DNA of 64,000 bases. Origin: Pelecanus crispus. Lineage: Eukaryota > Chordata > Aves > Pelecaniformes > Pelecanidae. Shown in pieces: positions 6,001-63,061 of this stretch. Position numbers and translations under genes: made by a program. Every line of letters begins with the position of its first letter. Position 1 is the first letter of the stretch. The notes beneath the pieces were generated by a model. The model ran no database searches. It was not told where the DNA came from and saw nothing but the letters and a program-made list of their open reading frames with translations. The stretch spans positions 6,620,501-6,684,500 of the forward strand of contig NC_134656.1 of the NCBI RefSeq assembly GCF_030463565.1. The letters run 5' to 3'.

Positions 6001-7500
6001 CTCTTCAAGTGCAGAAAAACTCATTAAAATGACCTAAAGGAGGATATATTATTATAACAACTTTTTTCCTCAGTGCCCTTCAACTGTCATAATGGCACAG
6101 TATACATAGTAACTTGAAAAGATTCAGAAATGTGTAAGAAGTATAATCTCTGGCTACAGTCACCAGCAGCATAATTATATGAATATATTGTGTATTCTGC
6201 ATCCTGTTCTTCGGTTTTGAGAGCCCACAGATTCTGTAGATGATGAATAATGTGGTATCTAACTAAAATATCAGTCCTAAATTGCTGGAATACATATTCA
6301 ACCTTAAATAATTGCTTTGGATTTGTGTTGATTCCAAGTAACATAATAGTTATGACTAATTTGCAGTTATTAAATGTAAAAAATGTACATTACTTTTGCA
6401 TTTAGGATTCTGCAAATTTGTGGATAGTAGTTGTTGTCAAGGGTATTTATGGGAGGTACAGGAACTTGCTGTCTCTAAGGATAAGGTCCAGTAAGGTCAA
6501 TAACCTAAAATCAGGCTTATCATGAGATTCATTTTTCAGGATGTGAAGGTTTTAATTTTTCATTCTTACAAGTTGTTACAGTGGCCCCACTGATGTACTT
6601 TTCATGGCTACATCCTTTGCAGTAATCAGAATCACTGGCTTTTCCAATAGTGCTGTATAGCACCTGCTATCTCAGGCGCCCAAAACATGGAAACAGTAAT
6701 AATGTCCCTGCCAAACTCAGTGGAAAAGGGGACGCATGGTTCCTGGGTACCCAGCAGTGTTAACTGTACTCAGAAACACACCGTATAATATTGGCTTTGT
6801 GCAAAACACCATCTCGTCTGATGGCATAGTACAGCTAAACAGGCCAGTGGCATTTGCTGCTCTTTTGTGCTAAAGATATTTCACAAATGCCAGTTTTAAT
6901 GGGTTACTTACACAGGAAAGAAAAGCCATGAATTGGTTAGGGGTTTGGTTTTGTTTTGTTTAAAGTTCAGTACGTGGTTTAGCAGTGTCTGGACCTCACT
7001 GGGCTATAGTCATTTTGCAATGTACTGTACTTTGCAACGCACTGAACTAATATTTAGAGATAAAGCTCCAAATCCATCCTTTGCACTAGTGTATAATAGA
7101 GTATTAATAGTAAGTGGGCCTTATAAAATGTTTGAGGGTTGGAAATTGCTAGTCTAGAAGGGTACACAAGATTAAATGTTAAGTCCCTCAAATTGTACAA
7201 GTTTACCTCAAAGATATTTTTACAATGCCTTTGGAGAACTCCTAAGTCTAAAACTTCTTGTTCTCATTGAATAACCAATTCTGGCCTAAAGTATAGTGTA
7301 ATGATGCTTATATATTGCTCTACTGCCTCTGCAAATGTACTTCAGCCAATTTTGTGAAGTACTTCAGCTCCCGGGGTAAGAGATGCTGCGGCACTAGCAG
7401 TCAGCCAGCTCTTCAGCAGCACTCCAGCAACATGGCACCCAGGCTGAAGTGCTTCTGTGAGAGAAACATGGGAAGTACTTCAAATATTTTGCAAGCGGGG
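1..7500. other. Intergenic DNA upstream of CTCFL
   Basis: I see no supported gene, RNA gene or well-preserved repeat here. The longest open frames are under 90 codons, have no recognisable protein similarity and are not flanked by convincing splice sites. The sequence is AT-rich, as expected of bird intergenic or deep intronic DNA. In human the neighbour on this side of CTCFL is PCK1, transcribed away from it (from memory). No PCK1 exon is visible, so that gene, if syntenic, lies left of the window. Confidence 0.6.
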
Positions 7501-8856: not shown

Positions 8857-8984
8857 TAGAATCATAGAATGCTTTGGGTTGGAAGGGACCTTTAGAGGTC
8901 ATCTAGCCTGACCCCCCTGCAGTGAGCAGGGACAGCTTTAACCAGATCAGGGTGCTCAGAGCCCCGTCCAACCTGACCTGGAAT
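8857..8984 (-). mobile_element. CR1 LINE 3' fragment in the ERV
   Basis: Starts AGAATCATAGAATG and continues with GGGTTGGAAGGGACCTTTAG and the CCAACCTGACCTGGAAT segment. This is the reverse complement of an avian CR1 3' end, whose terminus is an ATTCTATG repeat. The element therefore lies on the minus strand, 5'-truncated, and was probably inserted into the ERV interior. Confidence 0.85.
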
Positions 8985-9040: not shown

Positions 9041-9256
9041 ATGGAGCTCTGCTTTCCTGGAGATGGCTGAACACCTGCCTGCCAATGGGCAGTCGTGAAT
9101 TAATTCCTTGTTTTGCTTTGCTTGCATGTGTGGCTTTTGCTCTACCTATTAAGCTGCCTTTATCTCAACCCATGAGTTTTCTCACTTTTATCCTTCCAAT
9201 TCTCTCCCCCGTCCCACCGAAGGGGGAGTGAGCAAGTGGCTGGGGTTAAACCACGA
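9041..9256 (+). repeat. Truncated 3' LTR of the ERV
   Basis: Matches the right-hand part of the 5' LTR (from about 7843 onwards), including the CTGCTTTCCTGG, TTGTTTTGCTTTGCTTG and TTTATCTCAACCCATG blocks and the GGGGTTAAACCACGA end. It lacks the left 340 bp or so of the LTR and has an internal deletion of about 20 bp near its right end. It stops only about 110 bp before the candidate CTCFL start codon at 9368. Confidence 0.8.
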
Positions 9257-9367
9257 CGGGGAAACCAATTGAGCTCAGCCCCGTGGTCTCCAGCCAAGCG
9301 GGAGCAGAAGGTTAAGGGCCTACAATTAAGACTGGGAGATCTCCATCCAGGCCTCGAGCGCGACAAA

Positions 9368-9553
9368 ATGGCAGGCTGCTTTTACAGGAGGCCGCCGCTT
9401 TTACAGGAGGCCTCGCAGGCCAGCGGGGCGGACTTGCTGCGCTTTGGCTGTGAGGAGAAGGGCTCTTTGCTCGCGTCGGGCACGGGCCTTTCACGGGGAG
9501 GCCTTCGGAGGCTCGCCCCTGCCAGGCCCTTGCCCCTCTTGGGGAATGAACAG
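9368..9553 (+). CDS. CTCFL: CTCFL candidate exon 1 (tentative coding start)
   Basis: The ATG at 9368 has a strong context (A at -3, G at +4) and is open for 62 codons to a consensus donor, CAG|GTGAGG at 9553/9554. Splicing to 10008 is phase 0 and keeps the exon 2 frame open. The encoded peptide ([10 protein letters not shown] at its start) has no similarity that I recognise. The exon holds a short direct repeat (TTTTACAGGAGGC twice, near 9380 and 9400). It may instead be 5' UTR, with translation starting at 10167 or at a non-AUG codon. Confidence 0.4.
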
Positions 9554-12500
9554 GTGAGGAACCGGCTCTGCCCCACGGGCGGGCTTCCCTCAGCGCGCAG
9601 CGGGAAGGGCCCGCTCGGGCAGGGCCCCGGCTCGGCCCGCCCTTCCCTGAGGGGCCGCCGCGGCGCCCGGGGCGCGCTCCCTGCCCGCGGGCCGCCCGGC
9701 TGCTCCCGGCCGGGAGGTGGGAGCCTTCCCGCTGCGGGCCGGAGGGTGGGGTGGGGTGGGGTGGGGTGGGGGAGCCGCTGGCCGCGGAGCAGGGGGGGTT
9801 GAGGGTGTGAGGGCCGGCCGGGAGGCTTTGGGAGCGGGGCCGGGGCGGTCAGGGAGGCGGCGGGGGGTGGCAGGCGTGCGGCGCGCCGTGTGCGGGAGCT
9901 GTGCGGGCCGGCAGGGTGGTTCGAGGGCTGGGGTGCGAGGCAGGGCCCGGGGGCTGCCCTGAAAAGCCTGTGGTTTGCCCTCGTTTTTAATCTTGCCTTT
10001 TGAACAGGTTCACTCAGCAGCGTACGTGGCCTTAGGGCGGCTGGAGTCTTTCACCACAATCGGGGGTGCGGAGAAAAACGGGGACAGCAGAGAAGAGTGT
10101 GATGGGGACGGGATAACCCTTGCGAAGGAGAGGAGCAGTGCCAGTGACCACAGCGCAGCACTCGACATGCGGACGGGGGCAAGCGTCCCCCCAGCGTGGT
10201 CCCTGTCTCCTGAAGAGGGTGAAGAACACCTGGTGATGCTACAGACGGCGTGTCCGAAGGCAGAGGAGGTGCAGGCAGCCTGCCAGATAAGTGCCCACCC
10301 GCAGAAGGGCGCGGCGGTGGCAGTGCTGGCCGGGGCAGTTGTGCCGCAGCTGGTGGTGCCGCAGGGGCAGGGTGTGCTGCACGGCGTGCGGGAAGGTATC
10401 TGTGTGTTTTATGACTTAGGGCTCACGCAGATTAGCGTTTTGCAAGATAAAGGGCAAGCGAAGAGTTCAGAAAGCGAGCCAACAGAGAAATCACCAGATG
10501 TGCTGCTGATTGAGGTACGAGTTCTGGATGTGGTGAAGGTGGTGATGAGTTAGCTGTTAGCTTGTACTGTCACACTGATTTGGTTCTGACTTAAATACTA
10601 TTTTTTCTAGGCGTTCAGATTTGTTGGGCTTAAGTTTCTAATCCTTTGTACAGCTTTTTATAATTTCATCCCGTGTTTAGAAAGGCAAACTAAAAATTTA
10701 GCCTTTCTAGATGACTAACCTGTTGAAGTTCAGACAAGTTTTCAATTCAGTTTGCCAGTTTGGTGCTACTTGGTTTGACAGCCTAGATCCCTTAAGTAGC
10801 ATTCGACAATTTCCCTTTTCCTGCATTAGTACAATACAGCAGTCGTCGTTAAAACTGGATATGTAATCTGCTCTCACGCATTTTATTAAAAGGACATGCA
10901 AACATTGGTATTTATCCTGTGCTAGCTATTGGTTTTATAATTTTTCTTTTTCTTTTAAAACTCATATGCCACCTTAGATAATTTCCGAGGTATGGTCATA
11001 TTTAAGTTCATCAAATGCAAAAAGTATCACAACCTTGTTAATTGCTGTATGACAAAGAAAAATACATAAGCATTACCATTAGGCTGCAAAAGTCCTATAT
11101 TAGTTTGGTAAAAAATTGAGAGCATACTTTCTTGTTGTTTTCTTTTAAAAGGTATGTGTACTGAAATTAAATTTAAAATGCTTTTAAAATGCAACGATAC
11201 AAGTTTCTATGTTCTCAGTGCTGTAATCTTAAAATGATGCTCTGAAATTTGATACAAAATTTTGAAGAGCTAGGGCTCAATTTTAGTAATTGTTCACCTC
11301 CCAGTTAGGCCACTGTATGTTAAACGCAGATTTTTGGTTTAGGTTTTGTCCATCACGTTTAAGGCTGAAAATCAAAGTGAATTAGTGTCTTGCATCTTGT
11401 TGATAGCTCAGTCATTTTGCCACTAGCGACTGCCTTTGATGAGGGAAGTTGTAAAATGTTTTGTTCTTTTAAATAGATTGACAGAGATGATGTCATTGCA
11501 TTTGAAAATAAGGACCAGCAACTGACCCCATCTGAAGAGAGGGGAGGAAAGGTACTTTTTTTCACTCCTGGGGAAACAATGAGCCAGAGCTGCAAAGCCA
11601 GTGATGATTTGTCAGACTCATGCGATGGAGGTAAAGAGCAGGAATATGCAACTCCATCAGAACAAACAGTTGTAAGAAATCCCAGAAATCTAAAAACTCA
11701 GATTTGTGCTCCACATCAGAAAAAAGGTAAAAAGTTAATAATCTTTGTAGTTCATTTTTAGATAACATACGTGAAGTTAGATTTTGAAGTGAGGTTGAAA
11801 TCTTACATTAAATATTCACAGCGTTAATTGTTAAGTTTAAATTAGGTTAAATCTAACATTCTGTGGAAATTTGGAAGAAGGAATAATGCCCTTGAGCCTT
11901 AAGTGATAAAAGGTACTTGTTCAGGCTGGTGTCACCTGTGTTGTGCTCAGGAGAGGCATTTTGGATGGCATTTAGAAATTAATGGTCTTTTGAACAGTAT
12001 GTGGTATTTGAAACCTCCAGGGAGATTTCAAAGTTAATAATAAACATCTTTGAATAAACCTAGTAATTTACTTAGTCTTAGTTCCCTTATTCAGCTTCAA
12101 AATGTGCTTGTTCAGGGGTTTATGGATGAGCTTAAGAGTGGTTCCAAGTTGCTGGCTGAGGGTGGTAGGCAAGTATCAATGCCTGTCGGCAAGGTAGCTC
12201 CCAGAACCTAAGTAAAAGTAACAGAAAATGGCTGATTTAAGATTTTAGGAACATAAAAGTATGTTGCAGAAGTTAAGGACTGACTTAGAAGGGAGTGGAT
12301 AAGCAACTGTTTCCCTAGAAACTGTATGTACTGTAAAAGTTGTATGACATTGGTAGTGTGGAAGAGTCTGTAAACGTGTGTGTCATAGTATCTGGACGTT
12401 GAGGTGTCTTGGCTGAGGTTGTTTAACGTGTGGGTATTGTACCAGTTGTTGATGTCCCTTGTTTTAGTTACTGCGTTTATAGGAAGCACATTTGATCAGC

Positions 12501-15500
12501 TTTAACAAAGCTAACAATGTTCTTTTGTGTGGGCATGAATCCACAATGAATAAATAACAATAAAGTGGTTTTGTTTGCTGTTACTGAAGTGGAGTGTTAG
12601 CTGCACATCTCTGTGTGGTATAAAGCATTGTATAAAATACATTTTGGTCTCAGCATGAAAATCATTACAGAGCGTGCACTTGGGAGCTGAGACAACTGTT
12701 CTGGAAAGGCTCTTCAAATACAATGTATTTGCCATTTTGCAGTTTCCAATCTTCTTCAAAAATGAAAGTGTTGCACATTTACTCTTGTTAAGCTCAAAAG
12801 AAATTCATTACTGCTGTGCCATGAACTTGGAAATGTTATGTAATACAGAAAGCATAACTTTATTCTATGACTTCTTCAAGGAATTGATCTTTTTTTCCTC
12901 AAATTCAACTAACAATTTTAAAGAGGCTTTTACATCATGATGTTTTTTACTTAGGCTTACGGATTCAGGACTAGCAGAAAGCTGAGAATAGCTTAACCTG
13001 CCGTTTCCAGGTCTTCGAACAAACTTACTTAGTACTAATTATACAGTTGTCATCAAAAAGTGTGTTGCATGGGTTGTAAGTTCCTTGATGAAGCAGGTCT
13101 TAATGATGTTACCAAGAGAGGAAGTTTCATCCTGTCTTGGAGGTGAGAGCTAGGCTAGGAGTTAGGTTTCCTGGGATGAGGTTCTAAACTGTATCACTAA
13201 CACATGGCACTATTTTTTGGGCAAATCACTTAAGTCTTAAATAGATACAATAACTTCTGTCTGACGCCTTGATTTTTTTTAAATGTATTTTGAAGTCCTT
13301 TTATGTAGAAGTATGAAGTAGTTTTACCCAAAGTAGAGGAACTATATTGAAATTGGTACTATTTTTTGAAAAAGTCAAGTCATTATTTTGTGGCTTATCT
13401 AAATGTGTCTTTGTTCTCACAGAAGAAAAAGAAGTTTTCAGCTGTGGTTTGTGCACGTTCACCTCACTCAGATTATCAAGTCTTAATCGTCATGTGAAAA
13501 CCCATTCTGATGAGAAACGTCATGTGTGTCACCTTTGCCTTAAGGCTTTTCGTACAGCTACTCTCCTGCATAACCATGTGAATGCACATACAGGTATCTA
13601 ATGTGTGAAAATACTTCATTTTACATATTGTCTGCAGAACTTAATTAACAGGCAAATGACTGTCTTAAAGCTGTATTCTGTGATCATTTTGTGCTCAGAA
13701 GCTTTTCTGATCTCGTTTGGAGTTCCATGCTGGAAAGACATGGTCTATAGTTAGTAACTCCCTGTGTATGTATTCATTTATTTTGTTAAATAACATTCTA
13801 AAAATTTTTGTCAACTGAATATTGACTTCAGTTGTGCCTAATTCCTGTGTGCATAATAGAATTTTTTGTGATGTTTTCATTTTGCTATATAACCAAATCA
13901 GCAAATCGATAAAACATGTTTATAATAAACTTATGGTCTACATTTTTTGTATATAAAAATTCCGAATCTCAGAAGAGGTTCTATTAAAAAATTGTGCATG
14001 TTGATTTAAGGCAGACGTTGTTAAATAAAGTTCTAAGAAATGGTGTATCCTTACAGGGACCAGACCCTATAAATGCAGCGACTGTGATATGGCATTTGTG
14101 ACCAGTGGTGAGCTCTCACGACACAGGCGCTACAAACATACCTTAGAAAAACCTTTCAAGTGCTCAATGTGTAAATATTCTAGTGTAGAAGTAAGTGCAG
14201 CCTTCCTGAATCTTTTGGGAGGGTTTTTAGGCTTTCACATACTAAGATTTTACTGTACTGTAAAGTTATAACATTTTTGCAGAGATCTTTAACCTTGAGA
14301 AGTTTCTGCTAATTTGGGAACTACCTGTGCTATATCATACTGTCTGTATGATCCTTGGTTATTGTTAGATTTCTGTATGAGATCAAGTCAATACATTACA
14401 GAGGTAGTTGCAGATGCCAAGCTACAGTATTAATACTTAGCTTGTGATGCGGATGTATATATGCATTCTGAATTAGGAGGAATGGCCAAACTTATTGTTT
14501 CTGTAATACTTCGATACTGTGAAAGAGGACTGTAGAGACCATAAAGCTAGGGAGATCTGCTGGATCCCAGGAATCCGTGGCCCATGTACAATAGCATCAA
14601 AGCAAAGACCACCAGACTCTGCTAATGGCCTTGGACCACAGCGATGGGTTGAATTTCATTTGTCTGCTATGTTACTGCAGTATTACTGCAAGATAGCTGG
14701 TTACTAAAACTTTGTAGTGACATGCATTTCATTTGTATGCACATCTTTTCAGCCCCATCGCCCCTCAGAAAAGGAGCAAGTAATCTGAATTCCTTGAATC
14801 CTTACTTTGTCCATGTAGTAATATTTATAAATGAGTTGCTTCAAATTAGTATTTGTACAATTATTTACCTTTTTAACACTAGTTACATTTTAAGGGTGTT
14901 TTCTTTTTTATTATACTAAAATTGCTGCTCAGCAATATATTTGTGTGAATTTGATCCTACAACAGCATAGTTGGTCCTCCTTTACACTTCATTCCATATA
15001 CTGTAGGACAAGACTGACTAGTGTCTAAAATGAAGCTCATGTATTGTGTTTATGTTTGGTTTTACAGGATTGAAATGTTCTTAATCTGGAAATAAAAAAA
15101 TTAGAGACTGCCTAAGGGTTCACTTGGAAAAAATAGGCTTTCAGTCATACACCTATGATTGAATCACAGTCACAGTCACCTACGATTGAATTACTGTCAC
15201 AGTTTAGTGGATATTCAGTATCTAAATTTTGTATGTGCTATATCCACATCTAAAGCTGTAAGCAAGCCTGAACTTTATTCCATGCACCTTATCTTATTAA
15301 TTAGATTTTGGATAGCTTGCATCTTTAAAAACCTTTTCAGTTCATGTCAAAGTGTCCTATTCTTTCCCTTGTTTCCATAAGGAAGTATTCAGTGCTGATT
15401 TCTGTTGCAGAACTGTCACTAATATTGCTGTAAGCTTTACCTGAAGGAGGAGAGCTGAAGGACCCCCTAGTAATACCATGCATATGACTTGACTTTTGCA

Positions 15501-18500
15501 TAACAAAGATTGGCAATCATGTTTAATTTTATTTAAGTGAATAGTATTGTAGATTTGAATGGATCTAGCAGTGAATTCATTAAGTATGTTTGTAAATGGA
15601 GGAATTGAACATTAGGTAACGCCTAATTTTAGCTTGCATACCTACAATATTTACATAGAACATATCACAAGAAGAGTATAAAAAAAGTAGAATGAATTTA
15701 ACTTTTGCAATGAAAGTGCTTCATTGGGATTTGAAGATGAATAAAGACTTTGGTTAATGAGTTTGGTCTTTCATTTATTTTCCTGAGTATTTTCAAAGAA
15801 TTTTATGTCTGGCATATCCAAGTAGCCTGAAGGTAGTAGGTATCCCCTTCAGCTGATTTATAAATTCTAGCTTTTATGTTCTTATTATAAAATTTGTCCT
15901 TTTGTTTATGTTGGCACTAAACATGGAAGTAAGATCATCTGGGGAAAGAGTACAAAAATGTTACCTAAAACCACAACGAGCTGATTGTACAGGAAGGGGG
16001 CGGGGCAGGAGAGCACTGATTCTGGAATTGATGCAATATTTAAAATTGCAATAGATATATTTTGTAAAATTGCTTATATTTTAATTGATATGTCTCTAAT
16101 GTAAATGTTACTGCAGAAAATGTCTTATTTTTATACTAGGCAAGCAAAATGAAACGACATATTCGCTCACATACAGGAGAGCGTCCTTATGCCTGTGACC
16201 TTTGCAGTTATGCTAGCAAAGATGCATATAAACTGAAAAGGCACATTATAACTCATTCAGGTAGGACTCTGATGTAATGATCAAGTCTATGTCCTTAGGG
16301 CCTTAACATTCATAGTGTTAGCGTGATCTAATTTCAGACTCTAAAATTAGCACTTTTTTCATTTGTGATTTTGCGTAAATATGTGCCTGGAAAACGTTTT
16401 CTTTAAACTTTCTGGATTTGGCTATTGGAAGTCTAGCTGCAGAGTGCTAGTAGTTACAGTCTTGCTGTTCTTCCTAAACTTTTTTTTATATTAGAAAGAT
16501 ATTTCATTTACGTGGTCTTGTTTTCTGTGGATCAAGTTCTTACTTTTATTTCTCAACTAGTTAATTTTATATGGAGATGTATCTGACGGGAGAGTTTAAA
16601 TGTGTGTTCAAAACATGGACATTGTTGTGGCCCCAAATTGCTAGTAACTAATTTGGTCCGCAAAGAATTAAACTGTTTCAACATTGAAAGCAATGTGTTC
16701 CAGTCATGGCTCTGTAACGTGCATGCCTTCTGAAGAAGGCAGTTAGTGTCTATCATATACTTCAGGATTTAACTTAGCTCAGTTATGTTAGCAATGTATG
16801 TTATGATTAGTGTTTTAGTTTGAATCAGAGTGTGAGAGTGTGGTTTGAATCAAATCTTCCAAATATCCCCACTTACCATGCTTTGATTCATATCTCGAGG
16901 CAGTCTGGTGCAATTAAACTCAATTGTTTTTTAATGGGAGTCAAACAGAGGAGTCCAGCAGTGCACCTAGTGTTAGCCAGTACCAGTAGGGACTTGGTCC
17001 ACAGAACCACACTGGAGCTGGTTCAAAATCTGTGTGCATGTTGGGTCCTCAACACTAGCTGTTTCTCTCTGCTCTTACTAGACTGCGCTAATTGCCAGTG
17101 TTGATGTAATTTTTGATGATACTCACACCTGATGTGACTTTTTGGGGCAGAATGGCAAAAAAATAATTTACTGCTTGCTTTTTTGCCATGACCAATGGCT
17201 GGTGTTAAATCATTTTTATCATGATGTTGTTACAGCTGTTCACTTTCTCTCTTTGCACATTTAATAATTCTGCATTTTCGTATGTGAAATGTTCAAGCCA
17301 AAAGTTAATTAAAATAATTCCCAGTTAATAGTTTAGAATTATATTGATGGCTTTATGCTTCATCAGTTTGACTCGCAGCTTCTGGAAACCAAGATTTCGC
17401 ATTGTAATCAGCTATGTAAACTTCTTTAGGTGCATTGTCAACTAATAGTAACATTTTGGTTGGTTTGGAGACTGTTGCTGTTAGAACATGGATGTTGAGA
17501 TCTGTGGGAATTTTGCATTTGTATTGAGTAGAGAGAGTTTCTAAGCGTATATTATTTTAATATGTTTTTTATAGGTGAAAAACCCTATGAATGTTACATT
17601 TGCCAGGCCAAATTCACTCAAAGTGGTACCATGAAAGTCCATATGTTACAGAAGCATGGAGAAAATGTGCCAAAATACCAGTGTCCACATTGTAGTACCT
17701 TTATTGCACGAAAAAGTGACTTGGGTGAGTTGAAAGGAAAAAATTGGAAATGAAATGTAGAGATAATTAGAGGTGAAATCTCTCATTTTCACTGCTTACA
17801 ATGATACCAAATATGTTATATATGACTTTATATAATTATAGAGCATTTCTATGGAAAATGTATTCATTGTTTTGCAGGTAAGTTCCTTCTGCAAGGAGAT
17901 GTGGTGACATCTTGTGGTTGATGTTTTAATTTGCTTAAAATGGAAAGTAGCAAACACTTAGCTTTTTTTCTGCTCGATACCTGTGGCATTGTGACCTTTC
18001 TATTTTTTAGTAAGAAGGTACCTTGCAAAAATCTATGTCCAGGTTGTATTGAAAAGTTTTTTCTCAAAACCACAAAAAATAGTCGGATCTGTATAAAGCC
18101 ATTTCAGTTCTCACATTCTGTTTCTTTCTCAGCTCTACTTAAAATGTGTATATGGGTCTAGCTATATGTGAAACTAAAATAGATTGAATGTTTTAGTATA
18201 TACGGTTTTTTGCATATATCAAATCAACTTTTACCGCTTAAGCTAAAACTGTGCTGCGTGTTTAGTTGCTGAGCATATTGTCCTTATAATTTAAAGAAAT
18301 ACATGTAATTGCATTTGTTAGTAAAGTGCAAGTTAACTTTTGACTTCATCAGTCCAGCAGACAATGGTTTTACTATGCTTCAAGCATTCAAAACTTCGTT
18401 TTGAAAGGATTTGGTTCGTTAAATGATTTCCATTGAACTCAGTAAGATTTAGGCTTATAACTGCTTAATTTCTCTGGAAAGTTACAACATCTTGCTGCAA

Positions 18501-21500
18501 CTTTAGTTATCTTAAACCAATTTGGAAAATTGCCTATTTGGCAATTTTACCCCCATTGCAGAGAACACAGAAAGTTCTTTTTTGTGTTTTCCTCTACAAT
18601 GTATGTGTTACGCAGGGCTATGCGAGTCTAACTCTTGTTCAAAATAGTGGAAATAAAAAATTCACTATTAAAATTAATTGCTTTTAATAACTGTTCAGGT
18701 GTCCACTTGCGAAATCTGCATTCCTACATGGCAGTGGCAATTAAATGCAGTTACTGTGAAGCTGTTTTTCATGAGCGCTATGCTCTTATTCAGCATGAGA
18801 AGACTCATAGAAATGAAAAAAGATTCAAATGCGATCAGTGCAGCTACGCTTGTAAGCAGGTATTTAAATTCACTGAAAAATTATTGCTTATTCAATTGAT
18901 GGTTTGGCAAGGTACGGTGGGCTTTGGAGTTATATTTACCTTGGGAAGATAAAAACTTCTGTTACTGCAATCTAACTAAAACAGTGTAGTTACATTTGTT
19001 TGCAAGATAAATGGTTAACAAATAAACAGTAAAATTGAAATGCTGGAAAGTCTGAGGCTACCTTCTTGATAAATCTTTCGTACATGAACTGCTTGGAAGT
19101 ATAAAATAAGAGTAATCACTTTCAGTGACACTGTGATGAGAACAAAATATAATATGTGCGCCCTAAGTGTGATTTTCAGCGGTGTGTCAGAATAAATTCA
19201 GTCTGAAGTGAAAAGTTTATTTTAAAGAATACATTTAGGATAGCATTGCTTTGGCCTTGATATGTGGGAATGTACCATTGCTCCATTCTGATTATTTTCT
19301 CTGCCAACCTTAATAAGGTTAGGAGGAAAACCTCTGACCTGCTCCAAGTGAGTGGGCAGTATCCCAACGTGTTCAGCATCCGCTTACAGTGGAGGATAAT
19401 CAAGAAGTCTGTGCAGCATCCTTGCACTTTTCTGTGTGCCTGTGGTTTTTTTGAACGTATCACAGAGCTGGGATAGTTATGTAACAGATATTTTCTTTGT
19501 TTCAGGAACAACGCTTAATTGTACATAAACGAACCCATACTGGTGAGAAGCCCTTCACTTGTTTGTGCTGCAGCAAAAGCTTTCGACAGAAGCAGCTTCT
19601 CACTCTTCACTTTAGGAAGCACCACGATTCTAATACTAAGCGTACAGTTTATGAATGCCCTAAATGTGGTAAGGGCTATTCACTCCGGGTAAGACGCTTC
19701 CTTTTAAGGAATCTCAGTGGAGTTATCTTTAGCGAAGTATCGCAGATCATATTGTCACAAAGGCCTGAGAGTAAAAAGCAGTGTACTGGCTGGCATGCTA
19801 ACTCCTTAATGCTAAGCCAGCACAACTTGTTTGTTCTTTTTCCCAAACCTTACATTGGGGGATTAATAAAGAACTTTATAATATCCCCTTTAGGTAGAAA
19901 ATATCTGCCACATCATATTTTCAGGGTTGGTACTGGTTTGTACCATCCAGTATTGAAGTTACTAATGTTTAATACAGTAGTCTTCTTAAAACAAATAAAA
20001 AGGCAGTGTGGAGGTATGAATTCTAAGACAAATTAATTTGGAAAGATAATTGAAGTGAAAGAGGGCTAGGACCAGTTCAGCAGGGAAAGTAAGAAATTAT
20101 TATTCACATCTTCATATGCAGTGAGAACATATCTCTGGTGCACACTTCTAAAGTAAATGTAACCTTTTTTTCCACATAGAGATTTTACATGTAAAACTTT
20201 ATTGCTTATCCAGGAACCAGAAAATTATAAATTGGATTTTATACCAACCAAATGGCAATGTTCCTTTAAAGCAGAATTTTAATATGTATTCTGGAAAACC
20301 TTCAGGAGTTTTATGGAGGTTGTTAACTAAGTCAGCCTTTCACTTAGTGTTCCAAAATTTGTCTGTCAGTACCGTATTTGTGTTTTGTGTGTGTGTTAAA
20401 ATGCTTACATACATTAATATTTGATTCATATGTTTGTGCTTCATTATGCTAACAGAATAATATGCATAAGCATGCTGAAAATTGTGGATTGGTGAGGGCA
20501 AAAACTGCTACACCCAGAAAAAGAAGCAAGGGCAAAAATAAAACCCATGAGAACCCAAAGCGTGTTAAGCAAGAAGGTAATCAACGAATGTTAGAATTTA
20601 ATCATGTAAATTAGAATCAAGAATAAAAGGCTAAGGCAGTGATTTTCCCCTGCTGTTTAATTACTGTTTCACAATGAAGCTAATTTAAGTGCTAATAATG
20701 GAAGAATACTTCAGAATAGTCTTTATTGTGTGTGAGAAATTCTTGTCATCCGAGTTGGGTCATTGCTCAGGTACCCATTCTGAGACTTGTGTTCCCCTGC
20801 TCCTGCAAACGTCTTCCTAAACTCCCTGCTTAGCAATGCTTACAAATGCATTTTCCTTTTCCCTTTTACCAATTCTCTTTGCCTTTATAAAGGAGGATGA
20901 AACACATCATTACTGAGTTGTGCCATAGTGAGTTTTCTTAAGAGCTCATGATTTATAATATACTGCTTTAATACAGACCAGGTTGAAAACTTTTCAATTT
21001 CAGAACTCAGATTGCATGTTAATCCCAGAAGATCTAACACATGTTAATAAAGAAATTGTTCATCTTCTTTCTCTCGTGCTGAGACCAGATAGTGATCCAA
21101 TGATAATAAAAATGCTACTGATTTAAATAGCTAGAGTCATTCTTCTGTCGTACTGTAGAGGTGATCGCGCCAGTTTATAGAGCTCTTCGTTCGGCATGTC
21201 TGTGCAGTCAGAAACTCACTTGTAATTGCTTGGTGTTACTCATTGTGGGTAGCTCTAGAGCGCTGAGTGTTTATTCTGTAAACTTCAATATAAACCAAAA
21301 GATGGTCCATAGTTAATCCCTTTCCTTCTCTTTCTTCTGCTTCTTCATCTTTTCTCATTAGGTTAAGATTCCCAGAAAGTGAGTAAGTCCAGGTTTTGGC
21401 AGACCAAAATAGTAGACTGATTGGTCAGTTGATGTCTTGCCAGCAAGAACTCCACAGCAATAAGTGAAGTGCCTTTTCTATCTGGGTTATGCTAGTACAT

Positions 21501-23024
21501 TGCTGATATAATCATTGATGTTTTATCTTATTTGCAACTCGGAAAACATAGGAAAAAGTTGTTTTTATTCTCGCAAATAAACCTTAGCCTGTCACCACAT
21601 ATGTAGTAATATTCTGGTGGTTTCACCTTACAGTCTAAATTTGACCCAGAGGAGGTGTCTGCTCGTAATTTCAGTAATGTGCATTTCTGTTGAATTAGAC
21701 AAAGCTCAATATGCAATATTCAGTTAGGTCAGGCCATGGGCAGGAACCCTGCATCCTTGTGCATCCTGCCTTCCCCTTGTCTGTTTGATCTAATGCTGAA
21801 TCTCTGCACTGTTGCAGGGTGAGAGCTGGCCATGTGTTTCTGAGGTCACCTTCAGGGCCCCCAGGGCCAAAAAAATAGCTTTGCCTGGCCAGAACGTCGT
21901 GTCATTTTTTGCCTCTCTGCTTCCCAGATGCTGTTTGAAAGCCATAGTAGTCTCCTTGATAGGATTCTTCAGGTGATTTTTATGGAGTAAGAGACAAGAA
22001 TAGAGATACATCTAAGGCCTAGGTGTCCTAAACCCTTAAATTTTGGTATATCAGATTATACCTACAGTGATCTGTGGCCAATGACACTGAGATAAAATTT
22101 GACATATTGAGAAGAAGAAATGTTGAAGCTTTTCTGAATCTAATGAATATATATCAGCAGCTGAGTTTACATTAGCATTGACACTTCTGTTTTCACTGGT
22201 AAGGCTGTAATGGTATGGTTAGAGAGAAACGTTACAGCTGCAGTGTTTATGTTTTTGCAATAATTAGATTTTGCTGTTTATTAATGTTTTGCTATGTGCA
22301 AACAGTTTCTCTTCAGTATCTTGCAGATCCCTTTATACGGAAGATTATTTTCTAGAGCTAAGATAATGTGTCTTTAGATGTTGTTCATGCAAATACTGAG
22401 TCCATTAATTGACTCACACAAATATTAGAAATTTCTGTGCTGGTTCCAGAAGGTTTTTTCCCAAAGTTGACATTTGCAAGTATATGTCACTGTTCACTTC
22501 TTGCACAACTTGCAGGGGCCTGTGGAATACTGTGTGTGGCTTTACGAAACACTGGGGCTGTCAATGATTTGCTGTTACTAATAACTAAAAAATAAAATGC
22601 ATGTATATGAGAATTAAATTTCCAGTTAAATAATAGTTAGTTTTCCTCTGATAAGCATATCGTGGGTACTACTCACTAACATGGCTTGTAATGTAATATT
22701 CAACATAAAATGTATTCATTCTCCAAATCAACTATAAAATAAAAGATGCTGCTGTTATATATTGGCAGTATTTTCTCCACTAAATTAAATTACCTATTTG
22801 TTAAATTTATGGAAATATTTACTTGTCTTTCTGGTTAATCACCACAACGTTTAATTTTTTTTTGCAAAGTTGTCCTGGAATCGTTCCAAGATGTCTCCAC
22901 CATGAAAAATGAACATTGTGCTAGTGAGATTGTTCCTGTTTTAGATGGAATAGAAACAGCAACTCCGAGAGAACAGAAAACAGAAACGACTTGTGAAATG
23001 ATTCTCAACATGATGGACAAATAA
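9368..23024 (+). CDS. CTCFL: CTCFL (BORIS), CTCF-like eleven-zinc-finger protein (spliced gene)
   Basis: A nuclear DNA-binding regulator, paralogue of CTCF. In mammals it is mainly a testis factor that binds CTCF target sites. Exons, with matching phases: 9368-9553 (tentative), 10008-10514, 11477-11726, 13423-13593, 14057-14190, 16140-16260, 17575-17724, 18699-18859, 19506-19688, 20456-20576, 22870-23024. All introns are GT-AG. With the 9368 start the product is 712 residues; from the in-exon ATG at 10167 it is 597; human BORIS is 663 (from memory). The eleven fingers span about residues 322-631, ten C2H2 and the last C2HC, all with complete zinc ligands. BORIS rather than CTCF is indicated by [12 protein letters not shown] in finger 7, PFTCL and HFRK in finger 10, an LFF...ETMS block in exon 3 and the TCEM-LN-MDK end. 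The introns show no other gene. No stop codon or frameshift is seen in any exon. Confidence 0.95.
9743..9773 (+). repeat. GGGGT tandem run, G-quadruplex candidate
   Basis: About five uninterrupted GGGGT units on the + strand inside the CTCFL CpG island. Runs of four or more guanines separated by single T loops are a classical quadruplex pattern. If the first-exon donor at 9553 is used, this run lies in the first intron. Confidence 0.7.
10008..10514 (+). CDS. CTCFL: CTCFL exon 2, N-terminal domain
   Basis: The acceptor TGAACAG ends at 10007 and the donor GAG|GTACGA follows 10514. The exon is 169 codons, phase 0 at both ends. EKNGDSRE and the later [12 protein letters not shown] parallel EKDGVCRE and EESEKYILTLQT of human BORIS as I remember it, so the part before the first in-frame ATG (10167, G at -3) is probably translated. 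The middle is rich in Val, Gln and Ala ([13 protein letters not shown]), as in the low-complexity N-termini of CTCF and BORIS. A YDL tripeptide occurs at 10410-10418. Confidence 0.85.
11477..11726 (+). CDS. CTCFL: CTCFL exon 3, acidic linker before the fingers
   Basis: The acceptor is TTTTAAATAG and the donor AAAAAG|GTAAAA. The exon is 250 nt, entering in phase 0 and leaving after one base of a codon. It encodes an acidic, Ser-rich linker. [10 protein letters not shown] parallels LFFVETMS of human BORIS (from memory), a block absent from CTCF, which supports orthology to BORIS. The exon ends in a basic HQKK segment just before finger 1. Confidence 0.88.
13423..13593 (+). CDS. CTCFL: CTCFL exon 4, zinc fingers 1 and 2
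   Basis: The acceptor is TTCTCACAG and the donor ACAG|GTATCT; 171 nt. It encodes finger 1 (CGLC...HVKTH) and finger 2 (CHLC...HVNAH), both with twelve residues between the second Cys and first His. FTS-R-SS-NRH in finger 1 follows BORIS rather than CTCF. Predicted contact residues of both fingers equal those of human BORIS. Confidence 0.95.
14057..14190 (+). CDS. CTCFL: CTCFL exon 5, zinc finger 3 and start of finger 4
   Basis: The acceptor is ATCCTTACAG and the donor GAA|GTAAGT; 134 nt. It encodes the TRPYKC linker, finger 3 (CSDC...HRRYKH, helix TSGEL-R) and the CSMC half of finger 4. The helix of finger 3 is identical to CTCF and BORIS at the DNA-contacting positions. Reading on past the donor ends after a few codons of intron, so the exon border is clear. 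Confidence 0.95.
16140..16260 (+). CDS. CTCFL: CTCFL exon 6, end of finger 4 and finger 5
   Basis: The acceptor is TATACTAG and the donor TCAG|GTAGGA; 121 nt, starting in phase 0. It completes finger 4 ([11 protein letters not shown]) and encodes finger 5 (CDLC...HIITH, helix KDAYKLKR) with a standard HTGERPY linker between them. The helix contacts are as in human BORIS and CTCF. This exon was found through its splice sites and homology. Confidence 0.94.
17575..17724 (+). CDS. CTCFL: CTCFL exon 7, finger 6 and start of finger 7
   Basis: The acceptor is TTTTTTATAG and the donor TTGG|GTGAGT; 150 nt. It encodes the GEKPY linker, finger 6 (CYIC...HMLQKH, helix QSGTMKV) and most of finger 7 (CPHC...ARKSDL). 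[13 protein letters not shown] is a BORIS signature; CTCF has HTENVAKFHCPHC at this place (from memory). Confidence 0.95.
18699..18859 (+). CDS. CTCFL: CTCFL exon 8, end of finger 7, finger 8, start of finger 9
   Basis: The acceptor is CTGTTCAG and the donor AAGCAG|GTATTT; 161 nt, ending in phase 0. It completes finger 7 (GVHLRNLH) and encodes finger 8 (CSYC...HEKTH, with the invariant [10 protein letters not shown] helix) and the [10 protein letters not shown] half of finger 9. The family-specific non-canonical linker NEKRFKC joins fingers 8 and 9. Confidence 0.95.
19506..19688 (+). CDS. CTCFL: CTCFL exon 9, end of finger 9, finger 10, start of finger 11
   Basis: The acceptor is TTGTTTCAG and the donor CTCCGG|GTAAGA; 183 nt, phase 0 at both ends. 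Finger 9 ends [11 protein letters not shown], where CTCF and human BORIS have ERHM, so two predicted contact positions differ. Finger 10 is CLCC...HFRKHH with the conserved FRQKQLL helix. Finger 11 begins [16 protein letters not shown] and HFRK in finger 10 agree with BORIS rather than CTCF. Confidence 0.95.
20456..20576 (+). CDS. CTCFL: CTCFL exon 10, end of finger 11 and basic tail
   Basis: The acceptor is ATGCTAACAG and the donor GAAG|GTAATC; 121 nt, entering in phase 0 and leaving after one base of a codon. It completes the C2HC finger 11 ([10 protein letters not shown]) and adds a Lys/Arg-rich tail with [10 protein letters not shown], a likely nuclear localisation signal. The equivalent human tail is also strongly basic (RRTRKRK, from memory). 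Confidence 0.92.
22870..23024 (+). CDS. CTCFL: CTCFL exon 11, C-terminus
   Basis: A long T tract followed by GCAAAG gives the acceptor at 22868-22869. The 155 coding bases end at TAA 23022-23024. The frame restored by exon 10 gives [10 protein letters not shown] at the start of the exon and [12 protein letters not shown] at the end. The last residues match the conserved C-terminal motif of the family (TCEMLLNTMDK in human BORIS, TPEMILSMMDR in CTCF, from memory), so the gene is complete at its 3' end. Confidence 0.93.
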
Positions 23025-26693: not shown

Positions 26694-26929
26694 AGAATCA
26701 GAATCGTTTGGGTTGGAAAAGACCTTTAAGATCATCCAGTCCAACCATTAACCTAACATTACCAAGTCCACCACTAAACCAATTAAGGGTAGAGTAGCAA
26801 TTTCATGTTTCCTGGCTTGGTGGCTGGATTATTTTTAATTAAAGTAAAAACTAGGAATCACTAAGATTGGAGAGGACCTCCAAGATCATCAGTCCAACCA
26901 TCAACCCAACACCACCATGCCCACTAAAC
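26694..26929 (-). mobile_element. Composite CR1 fragment, copy A
   Basis: Two CR1-type 3' segments in minus orientation (TTGGAAAAGACCTTTAAGAT and TTGGAGAGGACCTCCAAGAT) enclose a 70-bp AT-rich non-CR1 stretch (TTCATGTTTCCTGGCTTGGT...). Almost identical to 32867-33103, with only a few differences over about 235 bp. Confidence 0.75.
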
Positions 26930-32866: not shown

Positions 32867-33258
32867 GAATCATAGAATCGTTTAGGTTGGAAAAGACCTT
32901 TAAGATCATCCAGTCCAACCATTAACCTAACATTACCAAGTCCACCACTAAACCAATTAAGGGTAGAGTAGCAATTTCATGTTTCCTGGCTTGGTGGCTG
33001 GATTATTTTTAATTAAAGTAAAAACTAGGAATCATTAAGATTGGAAAGGACCTCCAAGATCATCAGTCCAACCACCAACCCAACACCACCATGCCCACTA
33101 AACCATGTCCCAGAGTGCCACGTCTACCCGGTTTTTGAACACTTAGAGGGATGGTGACTCCACCACCTCTCTGGGCAGCCTGTTCCAATGCTTGACCACC
33201 CTTTCCGTGAAGAAATTTTTCCTAATATCCAATTTAAACCTCCCCTGGCGCAGCTTAA
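32867..33258 (-). mobile_element. Composite CR1 fragment, copy B (longer)
   Basis: Starts GAATCATAGAATCG and repeats the arrangement of copy A: CR1 segment, 70-bp AT-rich stretch, second CR1 segment. It continues into ordinary CR1 sequence (CACCTCTCTGGGCAGCCTGTTCC, GAAGAAATTTTTCCTAATAT, CCTCCCCTGGCGCA). Minus orientation, 5'-truncated. Confidence 0.85.
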
Positions 33259-34557: not shown

Positions 34558-34674
34558 CCTGGAAGTTTTCAAGGTGCAGCTGGACAGGGTGCTAGGTAAT
34601 CTCATCTAGGCTCTCTTTCCCAAGATGATGGTTCGAGGTCCCTTCCAACCTGGGCTGCTCTGTGATTCTGTGGT
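34558..34674 (+). mobile_element. CR1 LINE 3' fragment
   Basis: Contains GCTGGACAGGGTGCTAGGTAATCTCATCTAGG-type sequence and GGTCCCTTCCAACCTGGGCT, and ends CTGTGATTCTGTG, the CR1 3' terminus. Plus orientation, heavily 5'-truncated. Confidence 0.85.
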
Positions 34675-61838: not shown

Positions 61839-63061
61839 TGTGGTGGGTTGACCCTGGCTGGGCACCAGGTGCCCACCAAAGCTGCTCTATCGCTCCCCTC
61901 CTCAGCTGGACAGGGCAGAGAAAATACACGAAAAAGCTCGTGGGTTGAGATAAGGACAGGGAGAGATCACTCACCAATCACCGTCACAGGCAAAACAGAC
62001 TCGACTTGGGGAAATTAGCTTAATTTATTACCAATCAAATCAGAGTTAGGTAATGAGAAATAAAACCAAATCTTAAAAACACCTTCCCCCCACCCCTCCC
62101 TTCTTCCCAGGCTCAACTTCACTCCCGATTTCTCTCCCTCCTCCCCCAAGCAGCACAGCACACAGAATGGGGGTTGCGGTCAGTTCATCACACATCGTCT
62201 CTGCCGCTCCTTCCTCCTCAGGGGAGGGCTCCTCACACTCTTCCCCTGCTCCAGCGTGGGGTCCCTCCCACGGCAGACAGCCCTCCATGAACTGCTCCCG
62301 CGTGGGTCCTTCCCACGGGTGCAGCTCTTCACCAACTGCTCCAGCGTGGCTCCTTCCCACGGGTGCAGATCTTCACCAACTGCTCCCGCGTGGGTCCCCT
62401 CCAAGGGTGCAGCCCCTCAGGAGCAGCCTGCTCCAGCCTGGGTCCCCCGCGGGGTCCCAATTCCTGCCAGCAAACCTGCTCCAGCCTGGGCTCCTCTCCC
62501 CACGGGGCCACAGCTCCTGCCAGGAGCCTGCTCCGGCGTGGGCTTCCCCCGGGGTCCCAGCCTCCTTGGGGCACATCCCCTGCTCCGGCGTGGGCTTCCC
62601 CCGGGGTCCCAGCCTCCTTGGGGCACATCCCCTGCTCCGGCGTGGGCTCCTCCCCGGGTGCAGGTGGATCTCTGCTCCCGGGGGCCTCCATGGGTGCAGG
62701 GCACAGCTGCCTCGCCATGGGCTGCACCCGGGCTGCAGGGGAATCTCTGCTCCGTGCCTGGAGCCCCTCCTGCCCTCCTCCTGCACTGACCCTGGTGCCT
62801 GCAGAGCCGTTCCTCTCGCGTATTCTCACTCCTCTCTTCTGACTGCTACTGGTGTTGCACAGGTTTTTTTCCCCCTTAACTATGTTATCCCAGAGGTGCT
62901 ACCACCATCGCTGATGGGCTCGGCCTTGGCCAGCAGCGGGTCCATCTTGGAGCTGGCTGGCATTGGCTCTGTCAGACATGGGGGAAGCTTCTGGCAGCTT
63001 CTCACAGAAGCCACCCCTGTGGCCCCCCGCTACCAAAGCCTTGCCATGCAAACCCAATACA
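61839..63061 (-). mobile_element. Solo LTR of an avian ERV (about 1.2 kb)
   Basis: Read on the minus strand it begins TGTATTGGGTTTGCATGGCA and ends AACCCACCACA, the ends of a very common avian ERV LTR as I know it. Flanks ACGTC (61834-61838) and AAGTC (63062-63066) form a 5-bp target-site duplication with one difference. Minus-strand AATAAA is present near 62021-62030. The middle is a GC-rich array of CTGCTCCAGCGTGGG-type units, including two adjacent identical 52-bp units (62529-62580 and 62581-62632). No interior sequence remains, so this is a solo LTR left by recombination. The 303-codon and other open frames inside it are composition artefacts. Confidence 0.88.

Follow-up and report, generated by a model that had tools for sequence, protein, structure and literature searches.

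The window analysed here, a 64-kb stretch of DNA (C14:6620501-6684500 of the 1.31 Gb genome of Pelecanus crispus), carries a plus-strand gene for CTCFL/BORIS, the germ-cell paralogue of the genome organiser CTCF, with 10 coding exons at 10008-23024. Sequence comparisons make it highly probable that this gene is the CTCFL/BORIS orthologue of a neoavian, that purifying selection acts on it, and that it is functional. The pattern of interest would lie beyond its presence: the fingers that read the core motif are kept in many neognaths, while the N-terminus and, in passerines, the upstream-motif fingers appear to erode.

The retention of CTCFL by birds is already in print, and the main claim of the original prediction is known because bird orthologues have been published (PMC5871936, 2018; PMC7471279); PMC7471279 identifies BORIS orthologues in birds. 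The earlier comparative study referred to in that prediction, in which BORIS was found in mammals and reptiles with a trace in chicken, matches PMC2515639 (2008), which reports only a trace of BORIS in chicken. At least 68 CTCFL models from at least 58 bird genera are present among the matches listed, and four of these genera (Numida, Meleagris, Cyrtonyx, and Callipepla) are galliforms; therefore, the absence from chicken, taken here from the literature, is not bird-wide, which supports the predicted lineage-specific loss.

Gene model and translation start

The open frame comprises 1953 nt (650 residues) and has a terminal stop only, the stop codon ending at 23024, and all internal exon borders show an AG acceptor and a GT donor with compatible phases. 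Exon 1 (10008-10514, plus strand as all the others; AG/GT, phase 0), aligned to Struthio and turtle N-termini, and exon 2 (11477-11726) encode the N-terminal region. The finger array follows in exon 3 (13423-13593; ZF1-ZF2), exon 4 (14057-14190; ZF3 and the start of ZF4), exon 5 (16140-16260; the end of ZF4 and ZF5), exon 6 (17575-17724; ZF6 and the start of ZF7), exon 7 (18699-18859; the end of ZF7, ZF8, and the start of ZF9), exon 8 (19506-19688; the rest of ZF9, ZF10, and the start of ZF11, in 61 codons with phase 0/0), and exon 9 (20456-20576; the end of ZF11 and a basic tail), and exon 10 (22870-23024) supplies the C-terminus and the stop. The 11 zinc fingers are complete, ten of the C2H2 type and ZF11 of the C2HC type, giving 22 ligand pairs, and the C-terminal motif CEM(I/L)LNxMDK is present; the ends of CTCF resemble it, and we take the motif to mark the CTCF/CTCFL pair. 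The canonical borders, matching phases, open frame, ligand pairs, and C-terminal motif of the original prediction were all re-derived from the sequence. Pfam assigned the protein to generic zinc-finger families, and an Rfam scan returned 0 matches. A chance open frame is ruled out by phmmer scores of 540 bits against human CTCF and 1206 bits against penguin CTCFL and by nine introns with canonical borders, and a processed copy by the same introns and by exon 2, whose DNA has one match in the genome.

The description of the gene as intact does not hold at the 5' end, which lacks the ancestral initiator and has no in-frame ATG within 10008-10166. Palaeognaths, turtles, and mammals begin at the ancestral start position, where exon 1 has no ATG. 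The N-termini of Struthio and Dromaius read M(E/D)AAFGL(A/V)EPFTKIKG, Tinamus carries almost the same sequence behind a short extension, and the FTKIK peptide is common to turtles and human; the ancestral initiators of Struthio, MEAAFGLAEPFTKIKG, and Dromaius, MDAAFGLVEPFTKIKG, are aligned with codon 5 of Pelecanus crispus, which is GCG. The remnant of this N-terminus, the counterpart of EPFTKIKGAEK, was delimited at 10008-10166 (plus strand) by codon-by-codon reading and tblastn of the Struthio and Caretta N-termini, and within it FTKIK is degraded to FTTIG. Compared with human CTCFL, N-terminal identity is only 34/182, and the initiator and the FTKIK peptide have been lost.

As the ancestral initiator is gone, the start was placed at 10167-10169 (plus strand), where exon 1 has its first in-frame ATG, which follows residues 1-53 and opens the sequence MRTGAS; translation most likely starts at this codon 54, with the conserved N-terminal peptide thereby lost. 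Out-of-frame ATGs at 9546 and 10102 could lower translation from 10167. Model starts in other non-passerine neognaths fall on residues 52-57 of the window protein in 20 of 37 cases, among which Aegotheles is counted with a start unrelated in sequence; earlier Met starts occur in Cariama (21), Alca (35), Grus americana (39), Porphyrio (40), and Phalacrocorax and Cyrtonyx (both 42), and later ones, at 104-107, in Tyto, Patagioenas, Apus, and Columba. Almost all passerine models (24/25) start at residue 104 or beyond, 10 of them at 123.

An FTKIK-like peptide, defined as [FH]T[KQ][IST]K within the first 80 residues, is found in 23/28 non-avian CTCFL models (hand-picked from listings), in 4/6 palaeognath models, and in 0/62 neognath models, a count that cannot by itself separate loss from annotation because most of the 62 start later. 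Near forms occur among the five non-avian models without the pattern (Callorhinus FTRIK, Paroedura FTHIK, Hemicordylus STKVK), and both palaeognath models without it start downstream. At the DNA level, loss of the FTKIK initiator region is seen in one species, Pelecanus crispus. The N-terminal change appears from these comparisons to be derived and neognath-wide in the models, and no condition of CTCFL orthology.

Two other readings of the 5' end have to be weighed. Translation might begin in a candidate upstream exon (9368-9553, plus strand), whose in-frame ATG at 9368, GT donor at 9554, and fitting phase give an open read into 10008; about 115 residues would then be added to the N-terminus, and there would be no N-terminal loss. 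The context of this ATG, GACAAAATGG, is presumably a good one for initiation. However, the 62 residues encoded there sit in a CpG-rich stretch (CpG o/e 0.63-0.83 across 9200-10549), tblastn of the Leptosomus, Amazona, Fulmarus, Struthio, and Caretta N-termini gives no match at 9368-9553, and the FTKIK peptide would be degraded even when translated, which together make an upstream start unlikely. The gene could also be a recently silenced copy, its frame still open, its start codon lost, and its product no longer translated. The lost initiator fits this, as do damaged CTCFL copies in other birds and the matches of two models that extend further upstream, Fulmarus (10010-10090) and Leptosomus (10010-10066); tblastn places these matches in another frame, which indicates that this N-terminal part is not maintained as coding sequence. 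Recent silencing is nevertheless very improbable, since 15/37 non-passerine neognath models begin exactly at codon 54, the internal Met proposed for Pelecanus crispus; the initiator was thus probably lost long ago, and the remaining frame stayed open and constrained afterwards. A start at 10167 is the reading retained below.

Some annotated starts of other bird models also match DNA upstream of the gene. For the CTCFL model of Leptosomus discolor, the N-terminus matches 528-608, with a stop in the match, and 1508-1654, with 78% identity over 49 aa (both plus strand); this part of the model resembles a repeat or an upstream gene joined to CTCFL, and Pfam matched no family in it. Besides generic zinc-finger families, Pfam gave one bacterial peptidase domain for the Leptosomus model, below its cut-off. 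The Amazona ochrocephala model matches 7383-7496 (plus strand) with its first 38 residues, with stops in frame, and its start is probably annotated non-coding or repeat sequence.

Identity and locus

The best protein matches, among the best 120 of 1942, are bird CTCFL models, of which that of Aptenodytes scores highest (87% identity over 92% coverage); the best match of known structure is human CTCF. The models of Aptenodytes patagonicus, Theristicus, Gavia, and Struthio share the same 11-finger array and a near-identical C-terminus, and Aptenodytes differs in a segment, NVPAGMAVS, after GVLH that Pelecanus crispus does not have. CTCF also has 11 fingers, but its N- and C-terminal parts are barely alike, with 30/167 and 18/73 identical positions in the comparison with Apteryx CTCF.

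The tree proposed with the original prediction was run on the finger array (54 rows, namely the window protein, 45 CTCFL models, and 8 CTCF models; 316 columns) and separates CTCF from CTCFL at 100/100, with the Pelecanus crispus protein on the CTCFL side. It falls within a neognath CTCFL clade supported at 100/99 in this tree, the bootstrap of which had not settled, and again at 100/99 in a second tree of 37 rows and 597 columns. The inner order of the finger tree is not trusted, because of the unsettled bootstrap and because neither the pairing of the window protein with pigeon (92/83) nor the placement of Galliformes beside ibis (80/87) is repeated in the longer alignment, where Aptenodytes and Fulmarus are nearest by path and no supported set includes the window protein.

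Gene order in the pelican genome is PCK1-CTCFL-RBM38-SPO11: a genome search located PCK1 exons at C14:6608068-6610675 (minus strand), RBM38 at C14:6726990-6728057 (minus strand), and a SPO11-type domain at C14:6762831-6762953 (minus strand), with CTCFL (C14:6630508-6643524, plus strand) between PCK1 and RBM38. Motif scans for RBM38 and PCK1 within the 64-kb window found nothing, in keeping with the positions outside it given by the genome search. The PCK1/CTCFL/RBM38 arrangement falls within the block listed in section 3.4 of PMC5871936, and both the tree and the shared neighbours RBM38, PCK1, and SPO11 make the gene an orthologue of mammalian CTCFL/BORIS. CTCF itself lies on C8, where four stretches of 80-100% identity were found, one of them, at 94%, spanning a TGA; this search scored 60 of 1086 candidates and did not list the CTCFL locus among its matches, so copies cannot be counted from it. 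A divergent CTCF copy, to which the 70% identity of the fingers with bird CTCF (221/317) might point, is scarcely conceivable and is refuted by the 100/100 CTCFL clade, the separate CTCF on C8, and the CTCFL synteny.

Constraint, decay, and the passerine exon 8

Selection was examined in every neognath row (31) of the alignment behind the tree as the minimum number of changes per site, which is 0.386 for the 44 zinc ligands, 1.553 for the rest of the array, 2.930 for the N-terminal part, and 3.165 for the C-terminal part; permutation within the array gave a ligand value as low in 0/20000 cases, a test that rests on annotated models, which favour open frames. Ligand sites vary at 13/44 positions, and a changed ligand, gaps not being counted as changes, is present in 9/31 rows (Gavia, Pluvialis, Amazona, Apus, Aegotheles, Numida, Meleagris, Cyrtonyx, and Taeniopygia). 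When 15 rows were omitted (four LOW QUALITY models, six passerines, three Galliformes, Amazona, and Aegotheles), 3/44 ligand sites vary in the 16 chosen. In neutral simulations run on the Pelecanus crispus CTCFL coding sequence at assumed rates of 0.05, 0.10, and 0.17 substitutions per site, the probability of no premature stop was 0.042, 0.003, and 0 of 2000, respectively. The amino-acid substitution pattern bears out the continued selection claimed in the original prediction, and indicates that the gene is constrained.

CTCFL branches are nevertheless mostly longer than CTCF branches in the 54-row tree, and the 37-row tree shows long stems for Galliformes (0.27) and passerines (0.19). Like Pelecanus crispus, 16/44 other bird models keep a full set of ligands across the 11 fingers, and at least nine bird CTCFL models (P0009, P0010, P0013, P0015, P0017, P0019, P0109, P0254, and P0259) carry the NCBI label LOW QUALITY, a sign that the copies there are damaged or the assemblies faulty. 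Together with the changed ligands, these labels make the CTCFL of several bird lineages look decayed.

Exon 8 is missing in the passerine models. Its peptide, with a self-score of 343, scores 195-317 in 32/43 other bird models and 72-101, no more than other fingers give as background, in 25/25 passerine models from 22 genera, including the Lonchura model (P0248), labelled CTCF by its source and counted as CTCFL by sequence. Exon 7 sequence is joined directly to exon 9 in 12 of the 25, with 16 residues in between in Prinia; the remaining models end or diverge near the exon 7-9 junction or earlier, or the end of exon 7 was not located. As this absence is read from gene models, deletion, disabling, and skipping of the exon all fit. 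Exon 8 is also missing from 11 non-passerine models (Meleagris, Cyrtonyx, Callipepla, Aegotheles, Bubo, Phalacrocorax, Columba, Podargus, Grus japonensis, one Pezoporus isoform, and a partial Fulmarus). Across six passerine rows, 1/36 retained ligand sites varies (permutation p 0.0005).

On balance, we lean towards the view that birds cut CTCFL back stepwise under selection, first by loss of the start and N-terminus in neognaths and then by a start shift and loss of exon 8 in passerines, leaving a core-only BORIS in songbirds. The neognath ancestor would have lost the initiator and the FTKIK peptide, with the start moving about 50 codons inward, and in the passerine ancestor the start would have shifted inward again and exon 8 would have gone, so that the first half of ZF9 became fused to the second half of ZF11. 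No report of the neognath start shift or the passerine exon loss was found among the matches listed from the open-licence PMC literature. If this stepwise reduction is true, songbird BORIS would read the CTCF core motif and not the upstream motif, a natural experiment separating both. The parts of BORIS that matter for spermatogenesis would become testable, and the chicken loss would be the end of a wider erosion that is also visible in its galliform relatives.

DNA-contact residues and proposed function

Zinc-finger helices contact DNA through positions -1, 2, 3, and 6. In Pelecanus crispus CTCFL, the contact residues of ZF2-5, 7, and 8 are equal to those of CTCF (24/24), ZF1 and ZF6 each differ at one contact position, which in ZF6 is position 6, and 7/12 are unlike CTCF in ZF9-11. 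Relative to human CTCFL, the contact residues of ZF1-5, 7, and 8 are equal, and ZF6 and ZF9-11 are unlike. In CTCF, ZF3-7 bind the core motif and ZF9-11 the upstream motif, as stated in PMC9004084. With contacts in ZF2-5, 7, and 8 equal to those of CTCF and a divergent ZF9-11, core-motif binding is to be expected, and upstream-motif binding is uncertain; ZF6 is one of the fingers that read the core motif, and its difference at position 6 may count against CTCF-like core binding.

Mammalian BORIS is reported to be unable to retain cohesin (PMC6995019), to sit together with CTCF at clustered CTCF sites of germ and cancer cells (PMC4562119), and to be required, along with CTCF, for spermatogenesis in the mouse (PMC8219828). 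The bird protein probably acts likewise. In the proposed mechanism, Pelecanus crispus CTCFL, with the ancestral initiator gone, would be translated from the internal ATG at 10167 and would bind the CTCF core motif through the CTCF-identical contacts of ZF2-5, 7, and 8. By analogy, its place of action would probably be the germ cell, where it would compete or pair with CTCF at clustered sites and would not retain cohesin.

Elsewhere in the window, 62246-62658 holds GC-rich tandem repeats with units of about 44 and 52 bases, in a stretch that has long overlapping open frames on both strands. A tail pattern that we take to be the 3' end of bird CR1 has seven matches with two mismatches or fewer in the 64 kb, against 0.52 expected, and the four exact matches, spread over the flanks of the gene at 8877-8891, 26711-26725, 32885-32899, and 34636-34650, are expected in a bird genome.
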